From Sphingosinicella microcystinivorans (GTDB lineage Bacteria > Pseudomonadota > Alphaproteobacteria > Sphingomonadales > Sphingomonadaceae): a stretch of 64,000 nucleotides of DNA. Below are positions 15,239-33,037 of the stretch, one piece after another; the stretch's first letter is position 1, and each line of letters starts with the position of its first letter. The DNA is taken from contig NZ_CP116005.1 of NCBI RefSeq assembly GCF_027941835.1, positions 1,317,501 to 1,381,500 of the forward strand. Direction: 5' to 3'. The notes under the pieces were generated by a model that saw only the letters and a list, made by a program, of their open reading frames with translations, was not told where the DNA came from and did no database searches. Both the position numbers and the translations under genes were made by a program.

Positions 15239-15487
15239 TTTTCTCCCAGAAAACCAACGTTTTGAAGCCAAGGCCAACCGGTCTTGGCCTGGAGACAAAG
15301 GTCTCCCGCGGAGCCTCTGTCTCCACATTGTCTCCAATTTTCCGGAAGGCCGCGCGTAAGTTCGGCTGTTGCAGCGTAGGCGGATGAATTTCCGGCTCGC
15401 TGATCGATCTCGTTTATGTGCAGCGGCAGATGAGTCGGAGGGAATTCCCGGCCTGACCGAATTCAATGCGACATCTCTGTCGGCGAT
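15239..15487. other. Non-coding gap beside attL with four GTCTCC/GGAGAC sites
   Basis: No gene is seen. Between 15291 and 15335 the hexamer GGAGAC or its complement GTCTCC occurs four times (15291, 15301, 15319, 15330). Repeated short sites close to a core attachment site can be integrase arm sites; this is only a suggestion. Confidence 0.35.
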
Positions 15488-15880
15488 TTACATCGCGCGC
15501 AGGCGGTCACCGGTCGCGCTGATCTCATAAAAGCCGCTGGCAACTGTCTCGGAGATGCTGACCAGCTTGGGCCACAGGGTCAGTACCCGGGCGCATTGTC
15601 GTTCCATTGGCCATTTGGCCACGGCAGGTGCCGGAAAGAAGCCAATCAGGCCTGCATGCGAGAATATATGTCGGGACGGTCGTTTTCTGGCGATGTTGCG
15701 ATCCGCAGTCAGCACGCACCAGCGTCCTTCCCGGCCAAGGAGTTCGATCCACTCCTCGTCCTTGAGGCTGCCCGTCCCGAACTTGTCCTTGATATGGACG
15801 ACCGTATGCATGCCGTCGAAAAACGCCCCAAGGCCCCTGCCGAGCCTTGGTGGCAGATTGTTGTCGACGAGCAGCTTCAT
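15488..15880 (-). CDS. DUF5615 PIN-like toxin
   Basis: 130 residues. The start KLLVDNNLPPRLGRGL has the first PIN-fold aspartate, followed by a conserved VLTADRNIARK segment with another acidic residue, as in DUF5615 proteins, which are compact PIN-like putative RNases. They are usually paired with DUF433 proteins. The ATG overlaps the stop of the DUF433 gene by 4 bases, so antitoxin and toxin are translated together. RNase activity is inferred from the fold. Confidence 0.8.
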   Translation of the reverse strand: MKLLVDNNLPPRLGRGLGAFFDGMHTVVHIKDKFGTGSLKDEEWIELLGREGRWCVLTADRNIARKRPSRHIFSHAGLIGFFPAPAVAKWPMERQCARVLTLWPKLVSISETVASGFYEISATGDRLRAM

Positions 15881-16560
15881 GCCGCCTTTCGGTTGCCGAT
15901 GCTCGCCTCGTAGGCGATTGCATCACGAATGAGGCGCGGCTTGATTTCATAGACCCGCGCTGCTTGCTCTACTGAGCCTTCGGCAGCGACAGCCTCGACC
16001 ATCCGGGCCGTCGATATGCCGCATTCGGCCAATATCGGCTGGCCGAAGGAGCGGGTGGGATCGGCAACGACGGTTTTCTTGCCGTGAAGCAGCCACCAGC
16101 GTTCAGCCCCGCCCGGGCCAAAATCAAGATCCTGGAGGCTCGGCTCCACGACCCGCTTGAAGACGCCCTGGCTTTTCCTGAGATCGATGAACTCCGGTTC
16201 ATCGAGATCCCGGGTTATCTCGAGAAAGATTGTCTTCCCATCGGTCCTGAAGGCCTTGGTCGAGAAGGGTCGCTCGTCGCCGACAATCTCCCGGGCCCGT
16301 TCAATGCACTTTCTGATCGTTGGAAGGCCAATACGCTGTTTGCGTAGTGCATAAACGATCCGCGCCTCGACCAGATCGCGGAAACCCAGGAGGACGCCGT
16401 CTTCGTCAGGCTCATACTGGGGATGCCAGAGCGCGGGTTCCGGCTTGCTGTCATGCTGATAGCCCAGCAACCAGCGACGAAGCGTGGATTGGCTCATCCC
16501 GACCATCCGGGCGGCCTCGAGTGCCGTATAGGCCCCAATTCCATAATCCACGCTATCCAT
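15877..16560 (-). CDS. DUF433 family antitoxin
   Basis: 227 residues. The N-terminus has a helix-turn-helix of MerR-like type (YTALEAARMVGMSQSTLRRW) and the C-terminus a second one with the DUF433 look (GSVEQAARVYEIKPRLIRDAIAYE). It should bind its own promoter and neutralise the PIN-like toxin encoded downstream. The pair lies next to attL, a place where stabilisation modules are common in islands. The family names are from memory, but the gene order and overlap support the pairing. Confidence 0.8.
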   Translation of the reverse strand: MDSVDYGIGAYTALEAARMVGMSQSTLRRWLLGYQHDSKPEPALWHPQYEPDEDGVLLGFRDLVEARIVYALRKQRIGLPTIRKCIERAREIVGDERPFSTKAFRTDGKTIFLEITRDLDEPEFIDLRKSQGVFKRVVEPSLQDLDFGPGGAERWWLLHGKKTVVADPTRSFGQPILAECGISTARMVEAVAAEGSVEQAARVYEIKPRLIRDAIAYEASIGNRKAA

Positions 16561-17160
16561 GTCGCTCTATAATCATAACCGGTGAGCAAGGGGCAAAGGA
16601 ATTCGTCGATGAGTGGAAGCCGCGACATTGCTGCCGCGGCGAGTATTTCGGCCATGGCATCAACATCCATCGTTTGCAGTGCATCCGTTGACGCTGTGGC
16701 AGAAGACGACATGGGGATTGCAATACCGGAAGGGGGAAAGCCTTCCCCTCGGTCGGAGACGCTGCGCTGTCCCGACCTACCCCATCTGCGGGGGCACCCC
16801 GCAACGCCCCTGGAAACGGAGCGGGGCTGATGACGCGCTCTATCCCGCAGGTCCTGACGGACCTGCTCCTGAGGGCGCGGTAGCTTTATCTATCGGGCCC
16901 CGCACGCACTCTGACCCGGCGCGAATGGCAGCAATGGCAGCCTGTGAACGCCGACCGGCCCCGCCGTTCGGTCTGCCAGGCATCTGGCAAGCCATTTCCC
17001 GCCTCTGTCAGGGTGCGCTCTTTCTGTTCGGGCGATCTCGCTGGCCGCTCGCGCGATGGCTGGCAACGGTGTTGGAGAGTGAGAGCCTGGCGGCTTCGGC
17101 CGTGACGGTGCCGAAGCCAGAGGGAGTGGCCCCCGGCCGGTCCGTCCGAGGAGACAGGCC
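16561..17160. other. 600-base gap upstream of ardC
   Basis: No convincing gene. Short open frames on both strands have no recognisable start or family. Near the right end a perfect 9-bp hairpin (GGCTTCGGC 17092-17100, GCCGAAGCC 17110-17118) is followed by GAGGAGAC, the ribosome site of ardC, so this end is the structured leader of ardC. Confidence 0.5.
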
Positions 17161-18099
17161 ATGGCATCTTTCCGCGCACGTAGCGCTTCCGTAACCGAGC
17201 GGACCGACCTCTATCAGGACATCACTGACCGGATTATCATTCAGCTCGAGCAGGGGCGCGTGCCCTGGGTGCAGCCGTGGGATTCGGCCGCAGCAGCCCT
17301 TGACCTGCCGGTCAATGCCAGCACTCGCGCGCGCTACAGCGGGATCAACATCCTGATCCTGTGGAGCGCGATGATCGAACGCGGCTTCACCACCAACCGC
17401 TTCCTCACCTTCCGCCAAGCGCTGGAGCTTGGCGGTAATGTCCGCAAGGGCGAGCGGGGCATGACCGTGGTCTATGCCCATCGCTACACGCCGCAGCAGG
17501 AGCGCGAACGGGCCCGCGAGGAAGACCGGATGCCCGGAACGATCCCGTTCCTGAAGCGCTACACGGTCTTTTCGACCGACCAGTGCGAAGGCCTGCCCGA
17601 GGACTTGAGCGCGCCGATCGAGCCGGTCGACCGCTCGCTGATCCTGCCCGAGGCCGACGCCCTGATCCGCGCCACCGGCGCCGATATTCGCATCGTGGGC
17701 GGTGAGGCCTTCTACGTGCCTTCGCGCGACTACATCCAGATTCCGCGCCCCGAGGCCTTCCCCGACCCGATCAACTGGCACCGCACGGCCTTTCATGAAC
17801 TGGGGCACTGGACGGGGCATCCGAGCCGGCTCTCCCGCGTTCAGTCCGGCCGGTTTGGCTCGCCTGAATATGGCCGGGAGGAACTGTGCGCGGAGATGAC
17901 GAGCGCCTTCGTCTGCGCGGCGCTGGGGATCGAGCCCAGCGTGCGCCATGCCGACTACCTCGGTTCGTGGCTGGCGATCCTGCGGGAGGACAACCGCGCC
18001 ATCGTGCGGGCCGCAAGTGCCGCCTCAAAGGCCGCAGACTTCCTCCTCGCCTTCGCACGGGCGGAAGAGGCGGCGCCCGACCTCGCCCGGGGGGCCTGA
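17161..18099 (+). CDS. ArdC-family antirestriction protein (zincin-like)
   Basis: 312 residues. The N-terminal ssDNA-binding part is of DUF1738 type (DITDRIIIQLEQGRVPWVQPW, then NILILWSA, and KGERGMTVVY). The C-terminal zinc peptidase domain has HELGH at 212-216 with a downstream EELCAEM glutamate. ArdC proteins ride on conjugative plasmids and shield incoming DNA from type I restriction. Strong ribosome site just upstream. First gene of the rightward island core that includes the ParB-like and helicase genes. Confidence 0.88.
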   Translation: MASFRARSASVTERTDLYQDITDRIIIQLEQGRVPWVQPWDSAAAALDLPVNASTRARYSGINILILWSAMIERGFTTNRFLTFRQALELGGNVRKGERGMTVVYAHRYTPQQERERAREEDRMPGTIPFLKRYTVFSTDQCEGLPEDLSAPIEPVDRSLILPEADALIRATGADIRIVGGEAFYVPSRDYIQIPRPEAFPDPINWHRTAFHELGHWTGHPSRLSRVQSGRFGSPEYGREELCAEMTSAFVCAALGIEPSVRHADYLGSWLAILREDNRAIVRAASAASKAADFLLAFARAEEAAPDLARGA

Positions 18100-18255
18100 G
18101 GTCTCCGCGCGGGCCATGGGCGGGATCGGGGCAAGGGCGTCGCTGCCTCCGGGCAGGCGGCGCCCGCCCCATAGAGGGAAAGGGAAGCCGGGGGCTTCGT
18201 GACGGGCCAGGGGCTGGGAGAGAGGCTCCCGGCGGTCCGCCACCGGAGACCTGAC

Positions 18256-20397
18256 ATGGCAAGTGCTGCTTCCAAGATCATCCTGTCGCAGTCGCGCGAC
18301 ATTCCCTTCAACCAGCTGGTCCTGAGCCAGGCCAATGTCCGGCGGGTCAAGACCGGCGTCTCGATCGAGGCGCTGGCCGAGGACATCGCCCGGCGCACCC
18401 TGCTCCAGAGCCTCAATGTCCGCCCCCAGCTTGACGATGACGGCAAGGAAACCGGCCTGTTCGAAGTGCCTGCGGGCGGCCGCCGCTTCCGCGCCCTCGA
18501 GTTGCTGGTGAAGCAGAAGCGCATGGCGAAAACCCAGCCCGTCCCTTGCGTGGTGCGCGAGGGCAGCGACATTTCTGCGGAAGAAGACTCGCTGGCGGAA
18601 AACACCCACCGCGAACAGCTGCACCCCCTCGACCAGTTTCGCGCCATGCAGGTGCTGAGCGATCAGGGCCTGGGGCTCGAGGACATCGCCGCCCATTTCA
18701 TGGTGACGTCGGCTGTCGTGCGCCAGCGGCTCAAGCTCGCCTCGGTCTCGCCCCGGCTGCACGCGATCTATGCCGATGACGGGATGACCCTCGATCAGCT
18801 GATGGCCTTCTCGGTCTGCGAGGATCACGAACGGCAGGAGCAGGTCTGGGAGATGCTGGCGCACAGCTTCAACCGTTCGCCCGCTTATATCCGCTCGCGC
18901 CTGACCGAAGATACCGTGCGCGCCTCCGACAAGCGGGTCCGCTTCGTCACGCTCGATGCCTATGAGGCCGCAGGCGGCAGCGTCATGCGCGACCTGTTCG
19001 AGGATGACCACGGGGGCTGGCTGCAGGACGTGCACCTGCTCGACACGCTGGTCGCCGACCGCTTGCAGGCAGAGGCGGCAAAGCTCGAAGCCGAAGGCTG
19101 GAAATGGGCGGCGACGGCAGTCGATTTTCCCTGGGGTTACCGCGACGGCATGCGCGTCATCACCGGCACGGCCGCCGAGCTCACCCAGGAAGAACAGGCC
19201 CGGGTCGAAGCCTTGCAAGCCGAAGCTGCGGGTATCGAGAACGACTACGAGGGTGTCTCCGAGATCCCGGATGAGGTCGAACAGCGGCTGACCGCGATCG
19301 ACCAGGAGCTGGCGCTGCTGCTGGAACGCTCGCCGGTATTTGCACCCGAGGACATGGCGATGGCTGGGGTATTCATCAGCATCGATGTCGACGGATCGCT
19401 CCATGTCGAACGCGGCTTCGTGCGCGCCGAGGATGAGCCGAAGCCTGACTCGGACATGCCGGATGACGGCGGGTATGCTGGCGGCGAAGATGGGCACGAT
19501 GCCGGAAGCGTCGATGCCGATCGGCCCTTTGGCGGCGAACCGTCGCAGGGCAGCGAACCTTCCGGCGAGCCCGAAGAAGACGAGAGCAGCATCAAACCGC
19601 TGCCCGACAAGCTCGTCTGCGAACTGACCGCCGAGCGCACGCTGGCGTTGCAGGATGCGGTTGCGAACCGCCCTGACGTGGCCTTTGCCGTCGTCCTCCA
19701 TGCCATGGTCCTCCAGACGTTCTACCATGGAGCGCGGGAAAGCTGTCTCGGCGTGGCGGTGCATCGCACCGGCTTCCCGCACCAGGCGCCGGGCATGGCG
19801 GATTCGACGAGCGCCCGCGCGATCATCGCGCGGCATGACCAGTGGAAGGCCAAACTGCCCGAGCACGACATCGATCTTTGGGCAGCTCTTCTGTCCATGA
19901 CCGGCGCCGACCAGGCAACCCTGTTCGCCCATTGCGCCGCTTTCGGCATCAATGCGCAGTGGGAACCGGCCAGCCGCTACGATGGCAGGGTTTCCGCCCA
20001 CACGGTGGCGCGGCGCATCGAGCATGCCCATGTCCTCGCCCGCGCAGTCGATCTCGACATGGTGGCCGCAGGCTGGAAGCCCGGCGTCGAGAACTACCTC
20101 GGCCGGGTGACCAAGCCGCACATCCTTGCTGCGGTGACCGAAGCCCGGGGCGAGGAGACCGCAGCGCTGATCGATCACCTCAAGAAAGGCGACATGGCCC
20201 GCGAGGCAGCCCGCCTGCTCGAGGACAGCGCATGGCTGCCCGAACCGCTGCGCACGCCGGGCATCGCCGATCTTGTCGATCTTGGCGCAGTCAGCACCGC
20301 AGCGAGTGACGACCTGCCAGCCTTCCTCACCGGCGACGGGGAGCCCGAGGACGGTGAAGACGGCAGCTTCGACGCGTGGGCCATCGCGGCCGAGTGA
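18256..20397 (+). CDS. Long ParB/RepB/Spo0J-type protein
   Basis: 713 residues, more than twice the length of a chromosomal ParB. Residues ~15-125 match the ParB N-terminal nuclease-like domain (LSQANVRR, PAGGRRFRALE, LAENTHREQLHPLDQF), followed by an HTH-like segment (LEDIAAHFMVTSAVVRQRLKL). The acidic middle (~380-450) is a linker, and the C-terminal ~250 residues are a helical part I do not recognise. No ParA partner lies next to it, so a role in segregation is uncertain; regulation or DNA processing is equally possible. Start ATG 18256 follows CCGGAGACC. Confidence 0.85.
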   Translation: MASAASKIILSQSRDIPFNQLVLSQANVRRVKTGVSIEALAEDIARRTLLQSLNVRPQLDDDGKETGLFEVPAGGRRFRALELLVKQKRMAKTQPVPCVVREGSDISAEEDSLAENTHREQLHPLDQFRAMQVLSDQGLGLEDIAAHFMVTSAVVRQRLKLASVSPRLHAIYADDGMTLDQLMAFSVCEDHERQEQVWEMLAHSFNRSPAYIRSRLTEDTVRASDKRVRFVTLDAYEAAGGSVMRDLFEDDHGGWLQDVHLLDTLVADRLQAEAAKLEAEGWKWAATAVDFPWGYRDGMRVITGTAAELTQEEQARVEALQAEAAGIENDYEGVSEIPDEVEQRLTAIDQELALLLERSPVFAPEDMAMAGVFISIDVDGSLHVERGFVRAEDEPKPDSDMPDDGGYAGGEDGHDAGSVDADRPFGGEPSQGSEPSGEPEEDESSIKPLPDKLVCELTAERTLALQDAVANRPDVAFAVVLHAMVLQTFYHGARESCLGVAVHRTGFPHQAPGMADSTSARAIIARHDQWKAKLPEHDIDLWAALLSMTGADQATLFAHCAAFGINAQWEPASRYDGRVSAHTVARRIEHAHVLARAVDLDMVAAGWKPGVENYLGRVTKPHILAAVTEARGEETAALIDHLKKGDMAREAARLLEDSAWLPEPLRTPGIADLVDLGAVSTAASDDLPAFLTGDGEPEDGEDGSFDAWAIAAE

Positions 20398-20501
20398 CCC
20401 CCGAGGGCCGGGATGTGCCTGCTCGCGTCCCGGCCACTTCCCATCCCCTTTCCGGCGCGCGCGCGATGACGCCGCAGCGCCCCGATCACAGGACCAGACT
20501 G

Positions 20502-20975
20502 ATGAATGCCCATGACCTTTTCGACACCGCGCCGCTTGGCAGCCTGATAAGCTTTGCCAATGACCAGCCCCGACCGCCCGAGCGCTTCCGGCGCAAACTG
20601 GCTGCCTGGCGTACCTGGAACGGCGCTGGCCGGCTTGTCGCCATCTACCCGCGCCGCCTGATAGGCAGCAGCTTCCAGTCCGCTGGGTTCGTGCTGAAGA
20701 TCGGCGAATACGGCTCCGAAGGCGTGACGATCCTCACCGTCAGCCGCCATTTCGAGCTCACCTGTCCGCTCGACTTCGCCATCCTTGAGCGCCCGCGCCC
20801 CGGCATGGTTCGGGTCCTGACCGAATGGAACAGCAAGGTCGAGCTTCAGCATCTGGCCGAAGACCTGCCCTCAGCCCACGAATGGCTGGCACGCCACCGC
20901 TATTCGAACGCTTTCCTCAGCATTGCCGCAGCGGACGAAACGGGCGGACTTGGCGCCCTACGGAGGGCAGCGTGA
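20502..20975 (+). CDS. Hypothetical protein of the island core
   Basis: 157 residues from ATG 20502; ATG 20466 is an alternative. No family recognised. It begins NAHDLFDTAPLGSLISF, has basic surface stretches (PERFRRKLAAW), and contains a beta-rich middle (GEYGSEGVTILTVSRHFELT). Soluble, no signal peptide. Its stop overlaps the start of the next gene (GTGA), so the two are translationally coupled, and its place in the core suggests a shared role with the ParB-like and DUF7007-like proteins. Confidence 0.75.
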   Translation: MNAHDLFDTAPLGSLISFANDQPRPPERFRRKLAAWRTWNGAGRLVAIYPRRLIGSSFQSAGFVLKIGEYGSEGVTILTVSRHFELTCPLDFAILERPRPGMVRVLTEWNSKVELQHLAEDLPSAHEWLARHRYSNAFLSIAAADETGGLGALRRAA

Positions 20976-21802
20976 AGACGCCCAGGACAAATCCCGCACC
21001 GGTGTTCGGCAGAACCGCCGGAGGTCTGCTCGCCGCAAGCCTAGAGGATCATTCCTGGATCGCAGTTCCTGTCCGGACCGGCCTGCGCATCGCCAATGCC
21101 TGGCGGCTCAAGAAGACGATGGCCGACTGGACCGAGGAGGACTTCTGGGGTTCGTGCGGCATCGTTGCCGACGAGGCCGCATTCCGGGATCACGTTGCCG
21201 AGATTGCCGAGCACCACCGCGAATTGCGGGGTCTTCCCCGTCCGACCATGATCCCACGCCGGTCGACGCCGTGGGGTCCGGCCCAGCAATCCTGCCGCTA
21301 TGGTGAGGGGATCAGTTGCCACTCCACCGCCGGGCATGGCGGCTTCCATCTCGACGATCTACGCAATGCCGCGGTTCATCCGCTGCTGCGGCATGCCAAT
21401 GGCTGGTACGAAGAGGACTGCGACTGGGCCAAGGTAGCCTTCACCTTCCCGCGCCTGTTCACTACGCGGGAGCGACGGATCGCGGCTGAAAGCCTGATCG
21501 CCTATTATCCGGACGCCTGGGAGGCGATCCACGACATCGAGCTTGCCCCCGGCCAGTCACGCGTCAAGGACGAGCGCCGTTTCCGCGAGGTCCATGCGGC
21601 CAACTGGATCGTCATCTCGGCAGTGCGGTCGGACAGCCATCCGGGAATGGTCGACTGTGTCGCGACGATGGGCGGTGCGCGCGGAGCAGTGCCTGTCCGA
21701 CACTACCGGGTGCCGGTCGGCGAATACGCTCCCGGCGCGTTCGGCTTTGTCATCGATCCGGACCGCCACGAACAGGTGGAGCCTTCAGCCCTCAGCGCCT
21801 GA
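20972..21802 (+). CDS. DUF7007-like protein of the island core
   Basis: 276 residues from GTG 20972, which overlaps the preceding stop. The conserved middle is GEGISCHSTAGHGGFHLDD, followed by a stretch with WYEEDCDWAKVAF and the helix RERRIAAESLIAYYPDAWEAI, which I associate with DUF7007, a family found beside helicase genes on plasmids and islands. Two His and one Cys in the first motif could bind metal. No function is known, and the family name is from memory. Confidence 0.7.
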   Translation: MKTPRTNPAPVFGRTAGGLLAASLEDHSWIAVPVRTGLRIANAWRLKKTMADWTEEDFWGSCGIVADEAAFRDHVAEIAEHHRELRGLPRPTMIPRRSTPWGPAQQSCRYGEGISCHSTAGHGGFHLDDLRNAAVHPLLRHANGWYEEDCDWAKVAFTFPRLFTTRERRIAAESLIAYYPDAWEAIHDIELAPGQSRVKDERRFREVHAANWIVISAVRSDSHPGMVDCVATMGGARGAVPVRHYRVPVGEYAPGAFGFVIDPDRHEQVEPSALSA

Positions 21803-21995
21803 CCGCCAGCATACGGGAACAACAGCGCTGCCGGACCGGCCCGCTTCCGCGCATTCCCGCACGGAGGCGGGCCTTTTCGCATGTCCGCCTGCACGGCGGA
21901 CCAGAGAGGACGAGGCTGGCCGGGACGCAAGCGAGCCCGGGCAGGATCGAGGGAGATCGTGCCGGGCCGCAACCTTCAGTCCGGAGTTCCCTGTC

Positions 21996-24900
21996 ATGTC
22001 TCTTCTGCCCGTTTCCGCCTCGGCCTTGCCGCGCGCCGCGCATGCAAGGCCCCCCGCCGCCGCAGACAGCGAGCCCAGTCGCCTGATCACGGCAGCTACC
22101 GCGCTCCTTCCCCTGCTGGTGCGGGGCGAGCGCATTGCCACCGCGCGGTTGCGCCGGGTCATGGAGGAAGCCTTCGGCGGCAGCGATGCCGAGGGGCGCT
22201 GGAGCTGGAAGCTTGCCTATGAAGCCTGCGAAGCGGCCCAGGTCCTGTTCCTGCGCCGCTATGGCGCAGCCCTGCTGAGGCGGCCGGGCGGAGCACAGGC
22301 ATTGCTCGCCGCCATCCAACGCTTGGCCGACCTGCTTCCGACCCAGACCCGGCGATCGGAAGACGGACAGGCCTTTCAGCAGTTCTCCACGCCCCTGCCG
22401 CTGGGGCTAGTTGCCGCCGTCGCAGCCCGGATCACGCCCAGTGACCTGGTTCTCGAACCATCGGCAGGAACCGGCATGCTGGCGATCCTCGCCGAGATCA
22501 TGGGCGCCCGTTTGCACCTTAACGAGCTGGCCGATGGCCGGGCTGACCTGTTGTCCGGACTGTTTGCGACCCTGCCGGTCACGCGCCACGACGCTGCCCA
22601 GATCGACGATTTTCTGGAGCTCGACCTGTCACCGAGCCTCGTGCTGATGAACCCGCCGTTCTCGGCAGCGGTCCACGTCAAGGGCCGGGTCCGCGATGCA
22701 GCCTTGCGCCACATGCGCTCGGCGTTTGCGCGGCTTGCCCCCGGCGGGCGGCTTGTCGCCATCACCGGCGCGAACTGCTCGCCCCATGATCCTGCCTGGC
22801 AGGACGCCTTTGCTGAACTCCAGCAGGCAGGCACTCTCGTCTTTACCGCCGCGATTGCCGGCAAGGTGTTCGCGCCCCACGGCACCGCGATTGCCACGCG
22901 CCTGACCGTGATCGACAAGCTGCCTGCTGCCGATCCGCTTGCTTTCCCTGAGCCGCGCGGGATGGCCCCGGACGTTGCCAGCCTGCTCGACTGGATCCTC
23001 GCCGACCTGTCGCCCCGGCCGGACTGCACGCCGTCTGTTCCCGTCCACATCGTCGGGCCCCAGGATGGACGCGCCACCGGGATGCAGCATGGCCGTCCTG
23101 CCGTGGTCGCGGTCCCGCTGAAGGGCAATGTCCCGTCGCTCGAAGGGATCGAGCTCGAGTATGAGACGCTCGAAAGCGCCCCAGCAGACACCGTCCAGCT
23201 GGGCGAGGCAATCTACGAGCCTTACACGCTCCAGTCGCTCCGCATCCCGGGCGCAGTTCCCCATCCGACGCCGCTGGTCCAGTCGGCGGCCATGGCCTCG
23301 GTAGCACCGCCGCCACCCAACTATCGTCCGCATGTCCCGGCGAGACTGGTCGCCGATGGCATGCTGTCTGACACACAGCTCGAATCAGTGATCTATGCCG
23401 GGGAAGCCCATGCCGGATTTCTGTCCGGAGCCTGGGCAGTGGATGCGACGTTCGATGTCCTGTCGGCCGCGAGCGAGGAGCAGGAGGGCGCCGTCCGCTT
23501 CCGGCGGGGCTGGTTCCTCGGTGATGGCACCGGCGCGGGCAAAGGCCGCCAGGTCGCCGGGATCATCCTCGACAACTGGCTCAAGGGTCGCCGCCGCGCG
23601 TTATGGATTTCGGTGTCGGACCGGTTGTTGGAAGACGCGCAGCGCGACTGGGCGGCCCTCGGCCAGGAGCGCCTGCCGGTCACGCCGCTGTCGCGTTTCC
23701 GGCAGGGTAGCCCGATCCGCCTTGCCGAAGGCATCCTGTTTACGACCTATGCGACCCTCCGTTCGCAGGAACGCGAAGGCAAGGCCTCGCGCCTGGCGCA
23801 GATTGTCGAATGGCTCGGCTGCGATTTTGACGGGGTCATCGTGTTTGACGAAGCCCATGCCATGGCCAATGCCGCCGGCGGCAAGGGCAGTCGGGGCGAA
23901 CAGACGCCCTCCCAGCAGGGCCGGGCGGGCCTGCGCCTCCAGCATGCCTTGCCCTCGGCACGAGTGGTCTATGTCTCGGCGACCGGGGCGACCACGGTCC
24001 AGAACCTGGCCTATGCCCAGAGGCTCGGACTGTGGAGCGGTGAAGACTTCCCCTTCGCGACGCGCGGCGAATTCGTGGCGGCGATCGAGAACGGCGGGGT
24101 CGCGGCAATGGAAGTGCTGGCCCGCGATCTCAAGGCGCTCGGGCTGTATGCCTCGCGTTCGCTGTCGTTCGACGGGGTCGAATATGACATGCTCGAACAC
24201 GCGCTGACGGGCGAGCAGGTGCGGATCTACGATGCCTATGCCGCCGCCTTCCAGGTCATTCACAATCACCTCGATGCAGCCCTTGCCGCAGCCAACGTCA
24301 CTTCGGCGACCGGCACGCTCAACGCCCAGGCCAAGTCGGCCGCCCGCTCGGCGTTCGAAAGCGCGAAGCAGCGCTTCTTCAACCACCTGATCACCGCGAT
24401 GCAGTGTCCGAGCGTCATTGCCGCGATCGAGCAGGATCTGGACGCCGGACATGCCGCCGTCGTGCAGATCGTCTCGACCGGGGAAGCCCTTATGGAGCGC
24501 CGTCTGGCGGACATTCCGACCGAGGAGTGGAACGACGTCCGCGTCGACATCACGCCTCGCGAATATGTTCTGTCGTACCTCGAGCACAGCTTCCCAGTGC
24601 AGTTGTTCGAGCCCTACAGCGATGAGGAGGGGAACCTGTCATCGCGCCCGGTCTGGAAGGATGGGCAGCCGGTTCTCTGCCGCGAGGCGGTCGCACGCCG
24701 CCAGCAGATGATCGAGCATCTGGCCGCCTTGCCGCCGGTGCCTGCCGCGCTCGACCAGATCCTTCATCATTTTGGCACGGATGTGGTCGCCGAAGTGACC
24801 GGCCGCGCACGACGCATTGTCGCGCACCGCGATGGAAGCGGGCAGGTCCGCTTTGCCGTCGAGACCCGTCCCACGTCCGCCAACCTCGCCGAGACCCAAG

Positions 24901-26375
24901 CCTTCATGGACGATGCCAAGCGGATCCTCATCTTCTCCGACGCCGGGGGCACGGGGCGTTCCTACCATGCCGATCTGGGAGCCCGGAACCGCCGGCTGCG
25001 GGTCCACTATCTGCTCGAAGCCGGATGGAAGGCCGACAATGCCATCCAGGGCTTCGGGCGGACCAACCGCACCAACCAGGCGCAGCCGCCGCGGTTTCGT
25101 CCAGTGACGACCGATGTGAAGGCGCAGAAGCGCTTTATCTCGACCATCGCCCGGCGGCTCGACAGCCTTGGCGCCATCACCCGCGGCCAGCGACAGACGG
25201 GCGGGCAGAACATGTTCCGGCCCGGGGACAATCTGGAATCGCACTATGCGCGCGACGCCCTGCGCCAGCTTTATGCCCTGATTGCCGCCGGCAAGGTTGA
25301 AGGCTGCAGTCTCCAGCAGTTCGAGCAGGCGACCGGGCTATCGATCATTGAAGCCGAAGGCGGCGGGCTGCGCGACGAGCTTCCGCCGATCACGACCTTC
25401 CTCAACCGCATGCTGGCCCTGACGATTGCGCTGCAGGACATTCTCTTCACCGCGTTCGAAGACCTGCTCTCCCGCCGGATCGAAGGCGCGATGGCCAGCG
25501 GCACTTATGAAATCGGCCTAGAGACCCTGCGCGCAGAGAGCTTCGCGCTGACCTCACGCCGGACCATCTATACCCATCCCGGCACCGGCGCCGTGACCGA
25601 CCTGCTGACCATCACCCGCAAGGATCGCACTCGGACGGTTACGCTGGATGAAGCACTTGAGCTTGCCGGACGCAGCCAGGGACGGCTGCTCTTCAACCAG
25701 CGCTCGGGCCGCGCGGCGGTCGAGATGCCCGCGCGCAGCATGATGCGCGACGACGGTTCGGTCGAAGCCCGCATTCGACTGGTGCGCCCGGGCGAGGCCA
25801 GCACGGTGCCGGTTGAGGCCATGGCGGCAAGCCACTGGGAGCCTGCCGACGAAACAGCGTTCAGGACAGCCTGGACGGCCGAACTGGCGACGATCCCGGA
25901 GTTTGAAACCAGCACCCTGCACATGGTCAGCGGTCTGTTGCTGCCGATCTGGAAGCAGCTGCCCGACGAAAGCACCCGGGTATACCGGCTCCAGACCGAT
26001 GACGGGCAGCGCTTTGTCGGGCGCAAGGTCTCGCCAGCATGGGTCGCCGCGATCATCGAGGAAGAGGCACCGGCACTCGCGCCCGATGCCGCCTTTGCCA
26101 TGCTCATGTCCGGAGAAGCGGCGTTGCAACTGCGCGAAGGGCAGACCCTCCAGCAGGTCCGCGCCATGGGTACTCCGCGCATCGAGCTTGCGGGTTTCAG
26201 CGATCTGGCGCTCGACCGGCTGAAGGCGATCGGGCTCATCTCCGAAATCGTCTCGTGGAAGCTGCGCCTGTTCGTGCCGACCGGCAGCGACGGCCCCGCC
26301 ATCCTCGCCCGGCTGCTCGAGCGCTATCCTCTCGAGCGCATCCTGCCCCGCCGCGAGAGCGCCAGGGTAGCCTGA
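21996..26375 (+). CDS. Methyltransferase plus strawberry-notch helicase fusion (DarB-like)
   Basis: 1459 residues. Part one (~130-300) is an adenine-type DNA methyltransferase with the SAM motif EPSAGTGM (154-161) and catalytic NPPF (219-222). Part two (~470-1060) is a superfamily 2 helicase of the strawberry-notch type: Walker A-like GDGTGAGKG (509-517), DEAH (618-621), VYVSATGAT, and GFGRTNRTNQ (~1019-1028). The C-terminal ~400 residues are the family's own domain. Phage P1 DarB has the same order and protects injected DNA from restriction; an anti-restriction role is inferred. The start ATG 21996 opens after a 190-base hairpin-rich leader. Confidence 0.88.
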   Translation: MSLLPVSASALPRAAHARPPAAADSEPSRLITAATALLPLLVRGERIATARLRRVMEEAFGGSDAEGRWSWKLAYEACEAAQVLFLRRYGAALLRRPGGAQALLAAIQRLADLLPTQTRRSEDGQAFQQFSTPLPLGLVAAVAARITPSDLVLEPSAGTGMLAILAEIMGARLHLNELADGRADLLSGLFATLPVTRHDAAQIDDFLELDLSPSLVLMNPPFSAAVHVKGRVRDAALRHMRSAFARLAPGGRLVAITGANCSPHDPAWQDAFAELQQAGTLVFTAAIAGKVFAPHGTAIATRLTVIDKLPAADPLAFPEPRGMAPDVASLLDWILADLSPRPDCTPSVPVHIVGPQDGRATGMQHGRPAVVAVPLKGNVPSLEGIELEYETLESAPADTVQLGEAIYEPYTLQSLRIPGAVPHPTPLVQSAAMASVAPPPPNYRPHVPARLVADGMLSDTQLESVIYAGEAHAGFLSGAWAVDATFDVLSAASEEQEGAVRFRRGWFLGDGTGAGKGRQVAGIILDNWLKGRRRALWISVSDRLLEDAQRDWAALGQERLPVTPLSRFRQGSPIRLAEGILFTTYATLRSQEREGKASRLAQIVEWLGCDFDGVIVFDEAHAMANAAGGKGSRGEQTPSQQGRAGLRLQHALPSARVVYVSATGATTVQNLAYAQRLGLWSGEDFPFATRGEFVAAIENGGVAAMEVLARDLKALGLYASRSLSFDGVEYDMLEHALTGEQVRIYDAYAAAFQVIHNHLDAALAAANVTSATGTLNAQAKSAARSAFESAKQRFFNHLITAMQCPSVIAAIEQDLDAGHAAVVQIVSTGEALMERRLADIPTEEWNDVRVDITPREYVLSYLEHSFPVQLFEPYSDEEGNLSSRPVWKDGQPVLCREAVARRQQMIEHLAALPPVPAALDQILHHFGTDVVAEVTGRARRIVAHRDGSGQVRFAVETRPTSANLAETQAFMDDAKRILIFSDAGGTGRSYHADLGARNRRLRVHYLLEAGWKADNAIQGFGRTNRTNQAQPPRFRPVTTDVKAQKRFISTIARRLDSLGAITRGQRQTGGQNMFRPGDNLESHYARDALRQLYALIAAGKVEGCSLQQFEQATGLSIIEAEGGGLRDELPPITTFLNRMLALTIALQDILFTAFEDLLSRRIEGAMASGTYEIGLETLRAESFALTSRRTIYTHPGTGAVTDLLTITRKDRTRTVTLDEALELAGRSQGRLLFNQRSGRAAVEMPARSMMRDDGSVEARIRLVRPGEASTVPVEAMAASHWEPADETAFRTAWTAELATIPEFETSTLHMVSGLLLPIWKQLPDESTRVYRLQTDDGQRFVGRKVSPAWVAAIIEEEAPALAPDAAFAMLMSGEAALQLREGQTLQQVRAMGTPRIELAGFSDLALDRLKAIGLISEIVSWKLRLFVPTGSDGPAILARLLERYPLERILPRRESARVA

Positions 26376-26448
26376 CCGCGCCGATTTGCCGGTCCCGGGC
26401 CGCGCATCGCATCCTTACCCCTTCTCTGTTCGGCAGGAGCTTTGCCTC

Positions 26449-27486
26449 ATGAATGCCACCGAATTATCCCGCCGCCTTGGCCAGCAGGCCGAGGCGGTAT
26501 GCCGCCGCTATCTGTCGAACGGGTGCAGGGAGGGGCGTTACTGGCTGGTCGGCAATGTCGACAACGCACCGGGGCGCAGTCTTTATGTCCGCTTGGTCGA
26601 TGGCGAGAAAGGCCCAGCCGGTAAATGGACCGATGCTGCCACCGGCGATCATGGCGACCTGCTCGACATTATCGGTCACTCGGTTCGGGCCGCCGGCATG
26701 CGGGAGGCCCTGAGCGAGGCCCGTCGCTTTCTCTCCCTCCCGGAAGCTCCAGCCCCTGCGCCGCGATCGCGTCCTTTAGGGCTCAGTTGCATCAGTTCAG
26801 GCCAGCGGGACGCCGCCTTGCGGCTTTGGTCGGGCAGCCATCCGACCGCGGGCACTCTCGCGCAAGCTTACCTCCAGTCCCGGGGCCTTGAAGCAGGTGC
26901 GGACCTCACGGCCTTGCGGTTCCATCCCGGTTGTCATTACCGGCCGTCCCGTGACGATCCGTCTGACACGCCGACGCGTTGGCCAGCCCTGATTGCTGCG
27001 GTCACCGACAATGCAGGTGCGATCACCGGCGTTCATCGCACCTGGCTCGACCCGTCCGGTAAGGACAAGGCGCCTGTTGCCAATCCGCGAAAGACCATGG
27101 GCGCCATTCTCGGCCATGCCGTCCGCTTTGGCGTGCCGTCGGAGCGAATGATCATCGGCGAAGGCATCGAGACCATGCTTTCCCTGCGAGCATGTCTTCT
27201 GGCCATGCCTCTCGCGGCCTGTACGTCGTCCGCGCACCTGGCAGCCTTCCTGTTCCCGGCAGGCGTAAACCGCCTCTATGTCGCCCGCGATCGCGACACG
27301 GCCGGCGAGGCAGCTTTTGCCGCCATCGTCGACCGCTGCGCCACGTCGGGCATCGAGGTGATCCCACTCATGCCGATCTTGGGCGACTTCAACGACGACC
27401 TGCGACAATGCTCCCGCGAGGCTATGGCGGCCAACCTTGCCCGGCAGCTCGGTAGCGGGGACGAAGCCTTGCTGCGCAAGGCGTGA
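26449..27486 (+). CDS. Toprim-domain (primase-like) protein
   Basis: 345 residues. The N-terminal ~100 residues resemble the plasmid-type DUF7146 primase region without an obvious Cys zinc finger. The C-terminal toprim fold shows MIIGEGIETMLSL with its catalytic Glu and VARDRDTAGE with the D-x-D pair. Toprim proteins of this class accompany helicases on plasmids and islands and probably make primers or act on DNA ends. It starts 73 bases after the helicase gene, in the same direction, behind GGCAGGAGC. Confidence 0.82.
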   Translation: MNATELSRRLGQQAEAVCRRYLSNGCREGRYWLVGNVDNAPGRSLYVRLVDGEKGPAGKWTDAATGDHGDLLDIIGHSVRAAGMREALSEARRFLSLPEAPAPAPRSRPLGLSCISSGQRDAALRLWSGSHPTAGTLAQAYLQSRGLEAGADLTALRFHPGCHYRPSRDDPSDTPTRWPALIAAVTDNAGAITGVHRTWLDPSGKDKAPVANPRKTMGAILGHAVRFGVPSERMIIGEGIETMLSLRACLLAMPLAACTSSAHLAAFLFPAGVNRLYVARDRDTAGEAAFAAIVDRCATSGIEVIPLMPILGDFNDDLRQCSREAMAANLARQLGSGDEALLRKA

Positions 27487-27817
27487 GACCGGGAAGAGAA
27501 GCAAGCGGTCCGGGTGATCGGGCTGTCCTGTTGGTGCTTCTGTCAGTCATCTGCCGGATCGTTCGGCCTTCCTTCCTGCGATGCGCGTCTGCGCCGGCCT
27601 GTCCGGCGGAGCAACGGCGCCGCCCGGGCTATTTTCCGTCGGCGGGCCGGGGGCCCGCCTTTACATCGCGAAGCAAAATAGCCCGGGCTTTGCCGTCCTG
27701 CGCTGATCGCTGCGGCCGTCCGCTTCGCTCCCGGTGCGCCGCCGGTCTGGCCGTCACCAGAGGACGCGCGAAGGAAGGCCGGGAGAACGCCCGGCTCCGC
27801 TATCAGGAGCGCACCCC
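27487..27817. other. 331-base gap with a nested inverted repeat
   Basis: No gene. It is filled by the inverted repeat described at 27622-27688 and GC-rich flanks, and ends in the ribosome site AGGAG of the DUF2493 gene. Confidence 0.6.
27622..27688. repeat. Nested inverted repeat (cruciform-prone)
   Basis: Outer arms GCCCGGGCTATTTT (27622-27635) and AAAATAGCCCGGGC (27675-27688) are perfect 14-base complements. Inside lies a second hairpin, GGCGGGCC (27641-27648) with GGCCCGCC (27652-27659). Each outer arm itself contains the palindrome GCCCGGGC. It sits between the toprim and DUF2493 genes. Possible roles are a transfer or replication site, a transcription barrier or an operator. Confidence 0.7.
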
Positions 27818-28747
27818 ATGCAAGACTATGACGATCACGAACCCGAACACGCATCTTCCCCCACGGCGCACTTGCTCGAAGAACTCAGCCTCTATGGCTA
27901 CCGCCCCTTCTCGGACGAGGCCGACCCCAGGCCGCTGCCCGAAGAGCGGATCGCGTCCGGTGCGATCGCCGACATGTTCGACGCCCTGATCGCCACCATG
28001 CTCGACACCCGTCTCGAGCCTGACCTTGAGGAACTGTGCTGGTCGACCGTCAACATCTTCCACCGCGCCACCGGCCGCGTGCAGCGCGAACTTGATGACA
28101 ACGAGGATGCCCAGCGCCGCAGCCAGGGTGAACAGGATGGCTCGGAAGTCCGCTCGGTCGAACTTGAACGGCTCCTGCGCGAAGGCCTGTCGCTGATCGA
28201 ACGCCGCAATGCCCTGGAATTCATGCGCGAAGCCGCCAGTGACCAGTACGAACGACACTTCCGCAAGCCCTGGACGCCGCGCACCGGATCACTCGTCCAC
28301 CACAAGACCCTGACGGCCGCGATGATCGACAGCCGCGACTTCCTCGCCGCCAAGCGCAAGGCCGAGATCGAGCCGCTGCTGCCAACCGGAACCCGCGTCG
28401 CTTTCACGGCTGGCCCTGACTACACCGACCACAAGCGGATCTGGGACGTGCTCGACCGAGTTCACGCCAAATATCCCGACATGGTCCTGTTCCACGGCGG
28501 CAACCCGACCGGGGGCGAACACATCGCGATGCTCTGGGCCCGCAACCGCAAGGTCCAGCATGTTGCCTTCCGGCCCGAGTGGGAACGCTACCGCAAAGCC
28601 GCCCCGTTTCGCCGCAACGATGCCATGCTCGAGGCCATGCCAAAGGCGGTGATCGCCTGCCCCGGCAACGGGATCAACGCCAACCTCGTCGACAAGGCGC
28701 GCAAGCTGGGGCTCAAGGTCTGGAAGGTGGGCGCAAGCGGCAGCTGA
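27818..28747 (+). CDS. DUF2493 (SLOG-superfamily-like) protein
   Basis: 309 residues. The C-terminal ~110 residues are the DUF2493 domain: RVAFTAGPDYTDHKRIWDVL, then MVLFHGGNPTGGEHIAMLWA and ACPGNGINANLVDKARKLG, a Rossmann-like nucleotide-binding fold related to SLOG sensors. The N-terminal ~190 residues are helical and acidic. DUF2493 genes are regular members of plasmid and ICE backbones; the ligand and function are unknown. Last gene of the rightward core; its stop faces the tonB stop 69 bases away. Confidence 0.85.
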   Translation: MQDYDDHEPEHASSPTAHLLEELSLYGYRPFSDEADPRPLPEERIASGAIADMFDALIATMLDTRLEPDLEELCWSTVNIFHRATGRVQRELDDNEDAQRRSQGEQDGSEVRSVELERLLREGLSLIERRNALEFMREAASDQYERHFRKPWTPRTGSLVHHKTLTAAMIDSRDFLAAKRKAEIEPLLPTGTRVAFTAGPDYTDHKRIWDVLDRVHAKYPDMVLFHGGNPTGGEHIAMLWARNRKVQHVAFRPEWERYRKAAPFRRNDAMLEAMPKAVIACPGNGINANLVDKARKLGLKVWKVGASGS

Positions 28748-28815
28748 GCGCCCATTTCGACAACGGCCGCCAAGCCTGAAGGTCCTTGCCGCAGTGTCCC
28801 TGCGGTCCAGGCCGC

Positions 28816-29535
28816 CTAACGAAAATTGATAGGTATCTCGAACGTCAGCTGCGTATCCGCGATGCCGGTCGGAGCACGTGGGAAAGGCGCCGCCTGACGC
28901 ACGGATCGAAGCGCGATCTTGTCGAGCTGAATCAGGCCGCTGGTTCGCGAAACGGCAGATTCGATGAGCGCGCCGTCGGGTGTAAGGCGGAACCGTATCA
29001 TGGCAGTTCCGCGCATGGTGACACCACGGGGCCGATGCGCATCGATCTGTCGCCAAAGCGCGGCTCGGTAGAGCTCGAGTGCAGATTCCCGTTCGGCCGC
29101 AGTCGAAAGCCTTTCTGGAGCCGGACCCGAAATGCTCATTTCGGCAGGTTTCACGGATTCGGACGCCGCGGGGACAGGGGCAGACGAGCCTGGCGCCGAT
29201 GACGTTTCTGCGCCTGGCGCTCTGGTCGGCCGACGTTCCGCTGGTTCTGGGAGGTGCGATGATGGAGCCGGCAGAGTGGCGGGCGTCGGCTCTGCCCTTT
29301 CCTCTCGCATCGCCACGGGCGGTATCACTGCCAGGGTCACGACGGTTAGAGCCGCCCCCCGATCCTTGGCATTATCGGGCCTGAAATCGAGGATGCTGGC
29401 AAGAGTTGCGGCCACAAGCAGATGCAAGATTGTCGTCGCGCACAGGGCAATCAGGCGGGCACCCTTCAGGCAGTCAGGCAGGGCCATCGGGTGATGACCC
29501 TGCGATGCCCCATCTGGTTGCCCGCCTGTGTTCAT
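28816..29535 (-). CDS. Energy transducer TonB
   Basis: 239 residues. One N-terminal membrane anchor (ARLIALCATTILHLLVAATLA), a Pro/Ala-rich periplasmic spacer (residues ~70-140), and a C-terminal TonB domain (GTAMIRFRLTPDGALIESAV, then FPRAPTGI and TFEIPINF). It couples the proton gradient to an outer-membrane receptor. Its start lies 2 bases after the stop of the TonB-dependent receptor gene, so it is very likely that receptor's dedicated partner in copper handling. ATG 29487 is an alternative start. Confidence 0.85.
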   Translation of the reverse strand: MNTGGQPDGASQGHHPMALPDCLKGARLIALCATTILHLLVAATLASILDFRPDNAKDRGAALTVVTLAVIPPVAMREERAEPTPATLPAPSSHLPEPAERRPTRAPGAETSSAPGSSAPVPAASESVKPAEMSISGPAPERLSTAAERESALELYRAALWRQIDAHRPRGVTMRGTAMIRFRLTPDGALIESAVSRTSGLIQLDKIALRSVRQAAPFPRAPTGIADTQLTFEIPINFR

Positions 29536-29537
29536 GC

Positions 29538-31688
29538 TCAGAAGCTGGCGCTGAGGCCAAAGTTTACCGAACGCCCACGACCGGGCACCGGCCGCAGCAC
29601 ACCGGTCGCCTTGTAATCGCCCAGCGATACGCCGCCGAGCGGCAGGTTGTAGCCCTTGTCGAACAGGTTTTCCGCCTCGACGCTCAGTTTTACCGGCCCA
29701 AGGTTGTAGGCAAGGCGCAGGTTGACGAGGGCGTAAGCGCTGGTCACCGGTTCGTTGCGGGTGGCGTCCACACGGGTTTTTTCTGCCACCCATTCGAGGT
29801 CGACGCCCGCTTCGACCGGCCCCTGGCGGTGGTCGAGCGCGACCTTAACGTTCAAGGGCATCTGATGGTAGAGCGGTGCATTATCGGAGAGGTTCTGGCC
29901 GCGCACCCAGGACAGCGACCCGCTGAGGCGTGTCCCGGCATCCTTGCCGCCATCCCAAAGCTCCACCTGACCAGACACGTCCACCCCGACAAATTCAGCC
30001 TTCTGGTTTGCGAACTGCAGTTGGACAAAAGGCATCGGCAGGCCCGACATCGGGTGCGTCAGATTCTTCACGAACGCGGCGTCGATGTAGTCATTGACGT
30101 GGGTGTAATACGGTGAAACCCGCAGTGACCAGGTATCGTCCGTTCCCTTGAACTCGATTGCCGCACTGACCGTATCGGCGCGTTCCGGCTTCAGGTTCAA
30201 ATTGCCAACATAGCCGTTGCCATCGCCATACCAGCCGATCATCCGGCTCGCCATGGTCCCGCGCCCCCAGGTATAGCGTTCATAGATATTGGGCGAACGA
30301 GCCTTGTGCGCATAGCCAAGCTCGATCGCGACCCCTGAAGTGGGCGCATAGCTTAGCAGCGCGGATGCGCTCCAGTTGTTGTCGGTGCGTTTGTGTCCCA
30401 CCGCGTTGAAAGCATCCGCCGCCGTGGCGTCGGGCATGTTCATCATTGATGTGGAATAGGGCTGGACCTGCCCGGTATTCATGCGGACATGGTCAAGCCG
30501 CGCGCCGATCACGCTGGATAGCGTGTCGCTCCAGTGGGCTTCCCACTCGGCAAACCCGCCGATGCGGTCGCGCGTGCCGCCATTGATGTTCACGAAGGTG
30601 TTTGGCCCCATCATCATGTTGCCGGCTACCGGTGGCCAGTAGTCGTTCAGCCACTGGTGGTGGTATTCGCCGCCGAAGCGCAGCTTGTCACGCGCGGATA
30701 CCGGCAGTTCGAGCTTGAGCGCGGTGCTGAAGGTATGGACCTCGGTGATCATCGGCATGGCGCCGGGGAGCTTGTCCTCCAGGAAGTTCATCTCGTGGTC
30801 GGTATCGCGGTAATCAGCCGTGAACTTCACCGAGCCCCAGTCGAATTCTCCGTCATAACCGGCGTTGAGGAACCACGACTTGTTGGAGACCATGTCCATC
30901 GCCTGGTTGGCGAAGCCTTCATAGGGCGAAAAGTGGTAGCCACCCTTCAGCTTGAACAGCCCGGCATCGTTCTGAAACGCGAGGGCGAGGGCATGGTCGG
31001 TCTTGGCGTATTCGGTCGAGCGGACCCGCCCGAGATCGCCACCGGCCTTGTATTGCTGTGCCTGGGTATAGGAGCCGGTGTAGGTTGCACTGAGGTTGGC
31101 GCTCGCCACCGTCAGCAGCGCCGAGCCGCCAAAACCATCGCCGTTGGAACGATAGAACGCGGAAACCTCACCAGTCACCAGCGTGGTGCCGTCGCTAGCG
31201 AAGCGGGGAGCTACGCTCTCGACCGAGATGATCCCGCCGATGTTGTCGCCGCCCATGCTGACCGGCGCCACGCCCGGCACGACCCGGATCGATTCGATCG
31301 TCTGCGGAACCGTATAGGACAGCGGCGAATTCATGTCGTTGGGGCAGGACAGATCGATCGGCGCGCCATCAACCGTAATGCGCAGTCGCTGCTCGGACAG
31401 ACCGCGCAGAGCCGGCATCGAGGAGAACCCGCCGCCCGAATTGGCGCTGACACCGGGCAACTGGCGCAGCAGATCGCCGGTATCGCTTGTCGCGTTGTGG
31501 CGGCGCTTGATGTCCTCGCGTGTCAATTCTCGTCCTGTCACCGGAGCAGTGCCCACGCTATCGGCCGCATTTGCGGCATCTGCATCGACCGGGGGCAGTT
31601 GCGTGATTTCCTGTGCGTGCGCGGCAAACGGCAGCAGGGTGGATGAGGCGGCGAGCAGAACGCGCAGCGAGACAATTTTCGAATTCAT
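29538..31688 (-). CDS. TonB-dependent receptor, probably for copper
   Basis: 716 residues with a 25-residue signal peptide, a plug domain (GDLLRQLPGVSANSGGG, PALRGLSEQRLRITVDGAPI), and a 22-strand barrel ending in LSASF. Extracellular parts are rich in methionine (GNMMMGP, STSMMNMP), as in the OprC/NosA copper receptors. It is encoded between SCO and its own tonB. Copper as substrate is inferred from the Met clusters and from neighbouring PCu(A)C and SCO proteins. Confidence 0.85.
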   Translation of the reverse strand: MNSKIVSLRVLLAASSTLLPFAAHAQEITQLPPVDADAANAADSVGTAPVTGRELTREDIKRRHNATSDTGDLLRQLPGVSANSGGGFSSMPALRGLSEQRLRITVDGAPIDLSCPNDMNSPLSYTVPQTIESIRVVPGVAPVSMGGDNIGGIISVESVAPRFASDGTTLVTGEVSAFYRSNGDGFGGSALLTVASANLSATYTGSYTQAQQYKAGGDLGRVRSTEYAKTDHALALAFQNDAGLFKLKGGYHFSPYEGFANQAMDMVSNKSWFLNAGYDGEFDWGSVKFTADYRDTDHEMNFLEDKLPGAMPMITEVHTFSTALKLELPVSARDKLRFGGEYHHQWLNDYWPPVAGNMMMGPNTFVNINGGTRDRIGGFAEWEAHWSDTLSSVIGARLDHVRMNTGQVQPYSTSMMNMPDATAADAFNAVGHKRTDNNWSASALLSYAPTSGVAIELGYAHKARSPNIYERYTWGRGTMASRMIGWYGDGNGYVGNLNLKPERADTVSAAIEFKGTDDTWSLRVSPYYTHVNDYIDAAFVKNLTHPMSGLPMPFVQLQFANQKAEFVGVDVSGQVELWDGGKDAGTRLSGSLSWVRGQNLSDNAPLYHQMPLNVKVALDHRQGPVEAGVDLEWVAEKTRVDATRNEPVTSAYALVNLRLAYNLGPVKLSVEAENLFDKGYNLPLGGVSLGDYKATGVLRPVPGRGRSVNFGLSASF

Positions 31689-33034: not shown

Positions 33035-33037
33035 GGC

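Follow-up and report, generated by a model that had tools for sequence, protein, structure and literature searches.

A candidate leading-region module with a covarying hairpin in the remnant of an integrative and conjugative element of Sphingosinicella microcystinivorans

What would seven co-directional genes for anti-restriction and DNA processing serve where no transfer genes stand beside them? The question is raised by a block at positions 17161–28747 of a 64,000-nucleotide stretch of the Sphingosinicella microcystinivorans genome (assembly GCF_027941835.1, contig NZ_CP116005.1, positions 1,317,501 to 1,381,500, forward strand), the whole of which is called the window here. Judged by its sequence, the block is mostly one module of alphaproteobacterial conjugative plasmids and integrative and conjugative elements (ICEs), a new arrangement of a known kind, and it probably helps foreign DNA survive the first minutes in a new cell. 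We consider the block likely to represent the leading (establishment) region of an ICE resembling ICEMlSymR7A, stranded by a rearrangement associated with an IS21 insertion sequence, with a hairpin between its last two genes as a single-stranded DNA (ssDNA) signal. This hairpin was overlooked in a preliminary description of the locus and is the part deserving follow-up.

Results and discussion

Gene content of the block

Open reading frames (ORFs) were delimited with the later start codons chosen. As the preliminary description had stated, all seven genes run in one direction, and their ORFs are open and intact.

17161–18099, + strand: ArdC (ArdcN plus zincin; Pfam E 4e-43 and 5e-50)
18256–20397, + strand: ParB-like protein, 713 amino acids (aa) (ParB_N, E=1e-5)
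20466–20975, + strand: uncharacterised protein, 169 aa (model mostly beta, pLDDT 83)
20972–21802, + strand: DUF7007 protein, 276 aa (Pfam E 2e-46; model pLDDT 91)
21996–26375, + strand: methyltransferase / Strawberry-notch-type SF2 helicase, 1459 aa (AAA_34, Helicase_C_4)
26449–27486, + strand: DUF7146-Toprim_3 protein, presumed primase (Pfam)
27565–27780, folding best on the − strand: structured hairpin, ~215 nt, conserved core 27609–27714
27818–28747, + strand: DUF2493 protein (YAcAr, SLOG-type; Pfam E 3e-27)

The ParB_N score of 25.9 bits lies slightly under the Pfam cut-off of 26.3, and the methylase part of the 1459-aa helicase gave a weak match below the cut-off (MTS, E=0.022); annotated plasmid relatives of this helicase carry the names methylase or methyltransferase. 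In PMC5512222, Toprim_3 is a mobile-element primase, and Strawberry-notch helicases, the type to which Pfam assigns the 1459-aa protein here, and DarB are both treated as SWI2/SNF2-related. Structure prediction, which had been suggested for the two proteins without assigned function, gave the models listed above, but neither the 169-aa nor the DUF7007 protein found a PDB match at E<=0.001, and a Pfam search with the former returned nothing. An additional ORF at 27483–27989 is probably no gene, because it overlaps the conserved hairpin and had no match in a Pfam search.

Conservation and linkage of the gene set

The helicase was searched in one genome per species (84,980 species); 113 places were confirmed and the best 80 kept as loci, reaching at most 10 kb to each side, so that ArdC is possibly undercounted; several loci are truncated at contig ends. 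Downstream of the helicase and on its strand, the toprim gene was present in 75 of the 80 loci and DUF2493 in 72; the ParB-like gene was present in 63 (56 upstream, 6 downstream, 1 on the opposite strand), and all four stood in the window's order in 50. The widely kept core is thus formed by the ParB-like, helicase, toprim and DUF2493 genes.

Linkage was further scored in 196 genomes of the host's order, with 84 of 86 DUF7146, 73 of 80 YAcAr, the 70 best ParB-like and 58 relaxase matches kept, those left out being below the cut-off or fragments. Of 59 helicase matches, 56 had a toprim, YAcAr or ParB-like partner no farther than 30 kb away and on their own strand, the matches lacking one being G024:C18, G240:C24 and G240:C38; no partner lay on the opposite strand. 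Gene orders varied (window type in 8 of the 59, toprim-helicase-ParB type in 32), and on the Sphingomonas plasmid pBAR4 the set is reshuffled and joined by two ssb genes, all on one strand. This togetherness despite reshuffling argues for a common function. The preliminary description had proposed looking for the same gene order in plasmids and ICEs and had held that genes rarely found together would speak against a module; the linkage found is the opposite of rare.

Relatives of the ParB-like protein occur in at least 5,000 plasmid records (4,994 among the matches listed under 60% identity), and the ParB-like protein encoded between ssb and psiB on IncI1 is one of them (28% identity over 93% of the query). 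CTP-hydrolysing ParB proteins carry a GERRxR motif with a glutamate. This glutamate motif is absent in 12 of 12 ParB-like sequences aligned, IncI1 included, all of which read GGRR instead of GERR; members of this GGRR family may, going by the motif, bind a nucleotide and not hydrolyse it.

A structured hairpin upstream of DUF2493 and DUF736

The gap between the toprim and DUF2493 genes was compared, together with 30 nt of the gene, in the window and in 64 of the 80 loci with a gap of 150–600 nt; it spans 337–435 nt. Fifteen diverse gaps gave more stable folds than their dinucleotide-shuffled versions (mean z −2.71 on the + strand, −3.72 on the − strand), against a mean z of −0.19 for 30 control windows inside the helicase gene. 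RNAalifold predicted 52 pairs from ten sequences, 26 of them changed on both sides, and the same ten held 51 doubly changed cells vs 18.5 ± 3.2 after shuffling (reached in 0 of 500 shuffles), the structure being taken from the same alignment. When the two hairpin groups were aligned jointly with MAFFT, only 5 pairs resulted, which is why the groups were modelled apart. Model R1 was built from nine cores upstream of DUF2493; in its 43 matches (42 distinct), 128 doubly changed cells were counted vs 32.7 ± 4.1 shuffled, in an alignment fitted to the model. The copies have conserved loop sequences. No Rfam family matched the hairpin when the window element and 19 loci were searched, and in open-licence literature on Frpo or leading regions in alphaproteobacteria, DUF736/DUF2493 and strawberry notch with antirestriction no paper describing this hairpin was recognised by title or abstract among the matches listed.

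R1 found 47 matches in 28 of the 196 genomes of the order, the host genome holding the window copy only. Within a sample of 299 genomes of the phylum, 23 were matched: 22 in the host's class, host included, and one weakly (E 4e-4) outside it. The genes following the copies were assigned in 20 loci of the 47 matches, the window's included, and in a second sample made up of 37 of the 44 phylum matches, those absent from the order sample. The next gene was DUF2493 in 12 and DUF736 in 8 of the 20 loci, with a distance from hairpin to start codon of about 80–165 nt in all 20. Among the 37 further matches, 18 lay before DUF736 and 14 before DUF2493 (31 of these 32 at about 80–165 nt, one at 260 nt), two (L184, L191) about 440 nt upstream of ArdC, and three before none of the reference genes. 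The identity of DUF736 was Pfam-checked in two examples. An automatic choice of the next ORF after 89 hits (DUF2493 58, DUF736 4, ParA 4, other 23), for which minus-strand shadow rows and partial weak rows had been set aside, was discarded, as it often picked the wrong frame. At G437:C6:225406-232057, four hairpin copies lie within 7 kb, one of them (G437:C6:228998) opposite to its neighbours.

Strand preference and promoter motifs

The two strands were compared by DNA energies of the core plus 75 nt on each side in 42 of the 43 matches, one near-duplicate being left out. Each of the 42 copies was more stable on the strand opposite the genes, by a mean difference of −8.5 kcal/mol (z −4.57 vs −3.21); the copies are related and do not represent 42 independent events. 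In a control of 48 coding windows, the same strand was the more stable in 30, with a mean difference of −1.9. Three alignments gave −54.0/−34.4, −81.9/−51.7 and −111.7/−85.3 kcal/mol for minus/plus, and the pairs present on the minus strand only are rich in A.C on plus, equal to G.T on minus. The core helices hold 614 Watson–Crick, 17 A.C, 7 G.U and 24 other cells. For comparison, the region upstream of ssb on IncI1, a place where ssDNA promoters are expected, gave z −8.5 for the corresponding strand vs −6.6 for its complement; with −6.0/−5.5 upstream of ardA, −4.6/−5.0 upstream of a DUF1380 gene and about −2.5 to −3.1 for two coding stretches, that plasmid folds well in general.

Could the element act as RNA? 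A cis-regulatory RNA (5′ untranslated region) or attenuator for DUF2493/DUF736 would agree with the position of most copies about 80–165 nt before start codons in gene orientation, with the covariation, and with a + strand that also folds better than shuffles (mean z −3.21). We nevertheless regard it as rather unlikely, given that the minus strand is the more stable in every copy and in all three alignments, and that 614 Watson–Crick against 7 G.U cells would be strict for an RNA. An antisense RNA from the minus strand may be considered as well. Taken together, placement, orientation and strand preference favour an ssDNA promoter or priming signal rather than RNA.

Whether such a signal would be a promoter is less clear-cut. 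An alphaproteobacterial −10 element (CTATTT) paired with TTGACA matched at 9 of 12 positions in 10 of the 42 copies on the + strand vs 7% of shuffles, and this excess is probably the A/T-rich inner stem itself. Alternatively, the family could serve mainly for priming (ssi-type) or for protein binding, with the neighbouring toprim primase or a plasmid regulator as a possible partner, and be no promoter at all. The lack of a canonical promoter, the window copy after the primase gene and the conserved loop sequences would all suit such a site. It was judged unlikely, since five Methylocystis-type loci (L008, L010, L011, L013, L050) keep the copy with DUF2493 while toprim lies 2–7 kb away, and since copies also precede DUF736 and share the orientation of that gene, a feature that priming would not require. 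By analogy with Frpo, we infer that the hairpin is an ssDNA promoter or priming signal without classical −35/−10 elements. Tentatively, and with rather more reserve, alphaproteobacterial conjugative elements might possess their own class of ssDNA promoter or primer, a covarying hairpin with conserved loops and no −35/−10 that would activate DUF2493, DUF736 and, in some cases perhaps, ArdC genes from the entering strand.

Position relative to relaxase and origin of transfer

In ICEMlSymR7A, the origin of transfer (oriT) lies upstream of rlxS, after traF and msi107, according to PMC11963761. Upstream of DUF3363 relaxases, a conserved block was found by pattern match in 22 of 23 regions, which places the presumed nic between −136 and −197; the remaining region, L116, carries a variant visible in the alignment only. 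Exact YATCCTGY, tried near the same relaxases, was scattered without a common place, and the alignment then revealed a variant of this motif. The strand opposite the relaxase reads TTTATCTYG|CC (TTATCTYG|CC-like; TATCCTG|CC in L128), which is close to the MOBP nic consensus. In an oriT, the inverted repeat is expected on the 5′ side of nic, and here the 5′ side scored higher in 18 of 22 regions and equal in 2. The expectation of an opposite-strand nic was set down only after the motif result and counts as unregistered. On the IncI1 record, CATCCTG|T likewise stands opposite the nikA strand, with ssb, the ParB-like gene, psiB, psiA and ardA upstream.

Among the 29 longest relaxase matches, 18 had a module member within 60 kb, always on the same strand and in 17 of 18 upstream; G252 belongs to the 18 through one YAcAr match 57.6 kb away alone. 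The hairpins agree with this polarity: 35 of the 47 R1 matches lay no more than 60 kb from a DUF3363 relaxase, which shared their strand in 35 of 35 cases and was downstream in 33, the exceptions being the window copy and G023:C1:320043. Five of the 47 had no relaxase, ParB-like or YAcAr match nearby in the lists used, which comprised the 23 best YAcAr rows and the ParB-like rows without their middle tier. With nic at the predicted place, the module would enter first; the block would accordingly sit on the leading side of oriT, and the transferred strand would be the minus strand, the one on which the hairpin folds best.

The same co-orientation bears on a reading in which the genes form a host-kept defence or addiction island unrelated to DNA entry. 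PIN/DUF433 and Fic genes in the element would fit it, but it is very improbable in view of the linkage and shared orientation with relaxase and oriT and of the occurrence of the set on conjugative plasmids.

The host element and its lost half

The block lies in an integrative element, the landmarks of which are:

15163–15237: tRNA-Gly
15190–38192: 22.9-kb integrative element between attL and attR, without its transfer half, bounded by a 57-nt direct repeat (54/57 identical)
15190–15246: attL, 3′ end of tRNA-Gly
35641–36139, + strand: istB 3′ remnant, IS21 family, 499 bp, at the junction of the missing half
36591–37967, − strand: tyrosine integrase, adjoining attR
38136–38192: attR, direct repeat of attL
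57538–59946: IS21-family copy outside the element, with rve/Mu-transpos_C_2 and IstB_IS21 ORFs

The first tRNA pattern searched in the host genome gave 0 matches. In the genome of Novosphingobium piscinae, the same left end is present at the same tRNA-Gly, with a second att copy 93 kb away, and window positions 15161–21783 and 21857–35643 match this ~93-kb ICE at 96% identity, a stretch of 20 kb. Compared with the window, the N. piscinae ICE has an extra 6.45 kb between DUF7007 and the helicase and continues past Fic with DUF736, DUF2285, RepA, an S26 peptidase, a transglycosylase, a DUF3363 relaxase, a coupling protein and trb-type genes, including those for TrbB/TrbE/VirB8/CagX-type proteins. 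In the window, the match ends at the IS21 remnant, which is 100% identical to window 59448–59946, 24 kb off, i.e. the end of the IstB_IS21 gene (ORF 59009–59767, E 1e-71) plus the sequence after it. Measured by the hallmarks of ICEMlSymR7A-like elements, the window element has int and att only, without relaxase, coupling protein or trb type IV secretion system (T4SS), whereas relaxase, coupling protein and trb-type genes are all present in the relative.

The window element is thereby recognised as what is left of a conjugative ICE, hybrid in make-up, that kept its presumed leading-side half and lost the other half locally. The preliminary description had called the block a core without transfer genes, which holds for the window element and not for its 96% identical full-size relative; a free-standing island without transfer genes is ruled out by that relative. 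It is improbable that the window element is an autonomous mobilisable island which retains the module to enter cells by itself: it does possess int and att sites, the module is intact, and DUF3363 relaxases were matched at four other places in the host genome, but the junction is an IS remnant and the only oriT-like motif in the window is a 1-mismatch match inside int, at chance level (1 found vs 1.29 expected at <=2 mismatches).

Other genes of the element flank the block. To its right, on the other strand, 28816–34051 holds genes for TonB, a TonB-dependent receptor, SCO1/SenC, PCu(A)C and DUF2946. They probably form a cargo for copper handling, common to the window and the N. piscinae ICE. 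The Fic gene likewise lies to the right of the block on the other strand. At the left end, a PIN_10 / HTH-DUF433 pair (15488–16560, − strand; 99–100% identical in N. piscinae) looks like a toxin–antitoxin pair. Downstream of its relaxase, the N. piscinae ICE encodes an ORC-CDC6-like ATPase (L099 18307–19902, − strand; PF24389, E 3e-98). On Haematobacter pOT1-7, WYL, DEAD/DEAH helicase, N-6 methylase and UvrD genes follow DUF2493 and a WGR gene (L105 27104–44230), like a defence island in a cargo slot.

Proposed role and points against it

In the proposed explanation, an IS21-associated rearrangement would have removed the RepA, relaxase and T4SS genes. In intact relatives, oriT would lie just upstream of the relaxase and the transferred strand would enter module-end first, with the module genes read toward oriT and the transferred strand as their template. 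ArdC would then shield ssDNA from restriction in the recipient, marking or patrolling of the new duplex would fall to the methyltransferase-helicase and initiation of the second strand to the toprim primase, and the remaining four proteins (ParB-like, DUF7007, 169-aa and DUF2493) would have supporting roles. The ~215-nt hairpin before DUF2493, in relatives also before DUF736, would form on the transferred strand as an ssDNA promoter and/or priming signal. ArdC of R388 is required in the recipient against HsdRMS, as reported in PMC7213743.

Several observations weigh against this explanation or parts of it. Few of the 80 loci have DUF7007 (10), the 169-aa protein (9) or ArdC (3), so that the earlier idea of one functional module for entering DNA, a role that is predicted, is supported for most of the set, and for these three genes in few loci only. 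The relaxase G023 is the sole one of the 18 with the module downstream. The exact oriT-block pattern gave 0 matches in the host genome, though one of its own relaxase regions (L114) is among the 22, and no nic site, transcript or transfer assay for the family was found in the literature read. The window integrase is only 21% identical over 275 aa to that of the N. piscinae ICE, and because the integrases differ, the element is a hybrid and no simple deletion. Considering the core helices alone, the strands are barely separated (17 A.C vs 7 G.U cells). A classical promoter in the hairpin is unsupported, as TTGACA/TATAAT scored no better than in shuffles (best 6.95 vs 7.02 on the + strand, 6.71 vs 6.98 on the − strand). 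The model scan of the window found one copy, before DUF2493 only, and the regions upstream of ArdC, the ParB-like gene and the helicase fold modestly (z −0.46 to −2.62); with a single copy, the hairpin is not enough to explain how all genes of the block would be expressed early. Deletion of parB2 in pED208, whose ParB2 is a translocated protein, had no detected effect on transfer or SOS (PMC8406263). Finally, PMC8627217 describes a Mesorhizobium ICE core of 17 genes, and the module is not among the 16 that the portion consulted names.

Comparison with known systems and significance

Anti-defence islands and Frpo promoters have been described in plasmid leading regions (PMC11541004). The block shares with these islands co-directional genes on the leading side, a predicted position in the case of the block, anti-restriction and methyltransferase genes and structured elements before genes, while gene set and hairpin differ. 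In that study, ssDNA promoters were identified by BLAST to five known Frpo/ssi sequences plus a −35/−10 search, and in its main text 'alphaproteobacteria' and 'Agrobacterium' do not occur. Like Frpo/ssi of F and ColIb, the window family is a long imperfect hairpin, with several per element, before leading-region genes; unlike Frpo, it has no canonical −35/−10, and models R1 and R2 found no match in the IncI1 locus L083. With the F/IncI ssb-parB2-psiB-psiA cluster (PMC8406263), the block has in common a ParB-like relative, the IncI1 protein, along with the GGRR motif and polarity toward oriT, whereas no ArdC, Strawberry-notch helicase, toprim or DUF2493 is annotated within 10 kb of the IncI1 copy. 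ICEMlSymR7A-type ICEs share the order traF (S26), transglycosylase, oriT, rlxS, DUF736 on all elements and trb genes; they differ in that the module is unnamed in their core and the window has lost its transfer genes (PMC8627217 and PMC11963761). In PMC5512222, the combination of ArdC-N with a metallopeptidase, methylase-coupled Strawberry-notch ATPases and the toprim primases found in T4SS elements are described as domains and neighbourhoods, whereas here they are separate genes in one conserved module.

In the literature examined, F- and IncI-type plasmids are the elements for which the switching-on of genes from ssDNA during conjugation is known. The hairpin is compact and can be searched for. 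Matched in 28 genomes out of 196 of one order and in 23 out of 299 of the phylum, it would make the same question testable in other bacteria, and it points to candidate leading regions with their uncharacterised genes, DUF736 and DUF2493 among them.

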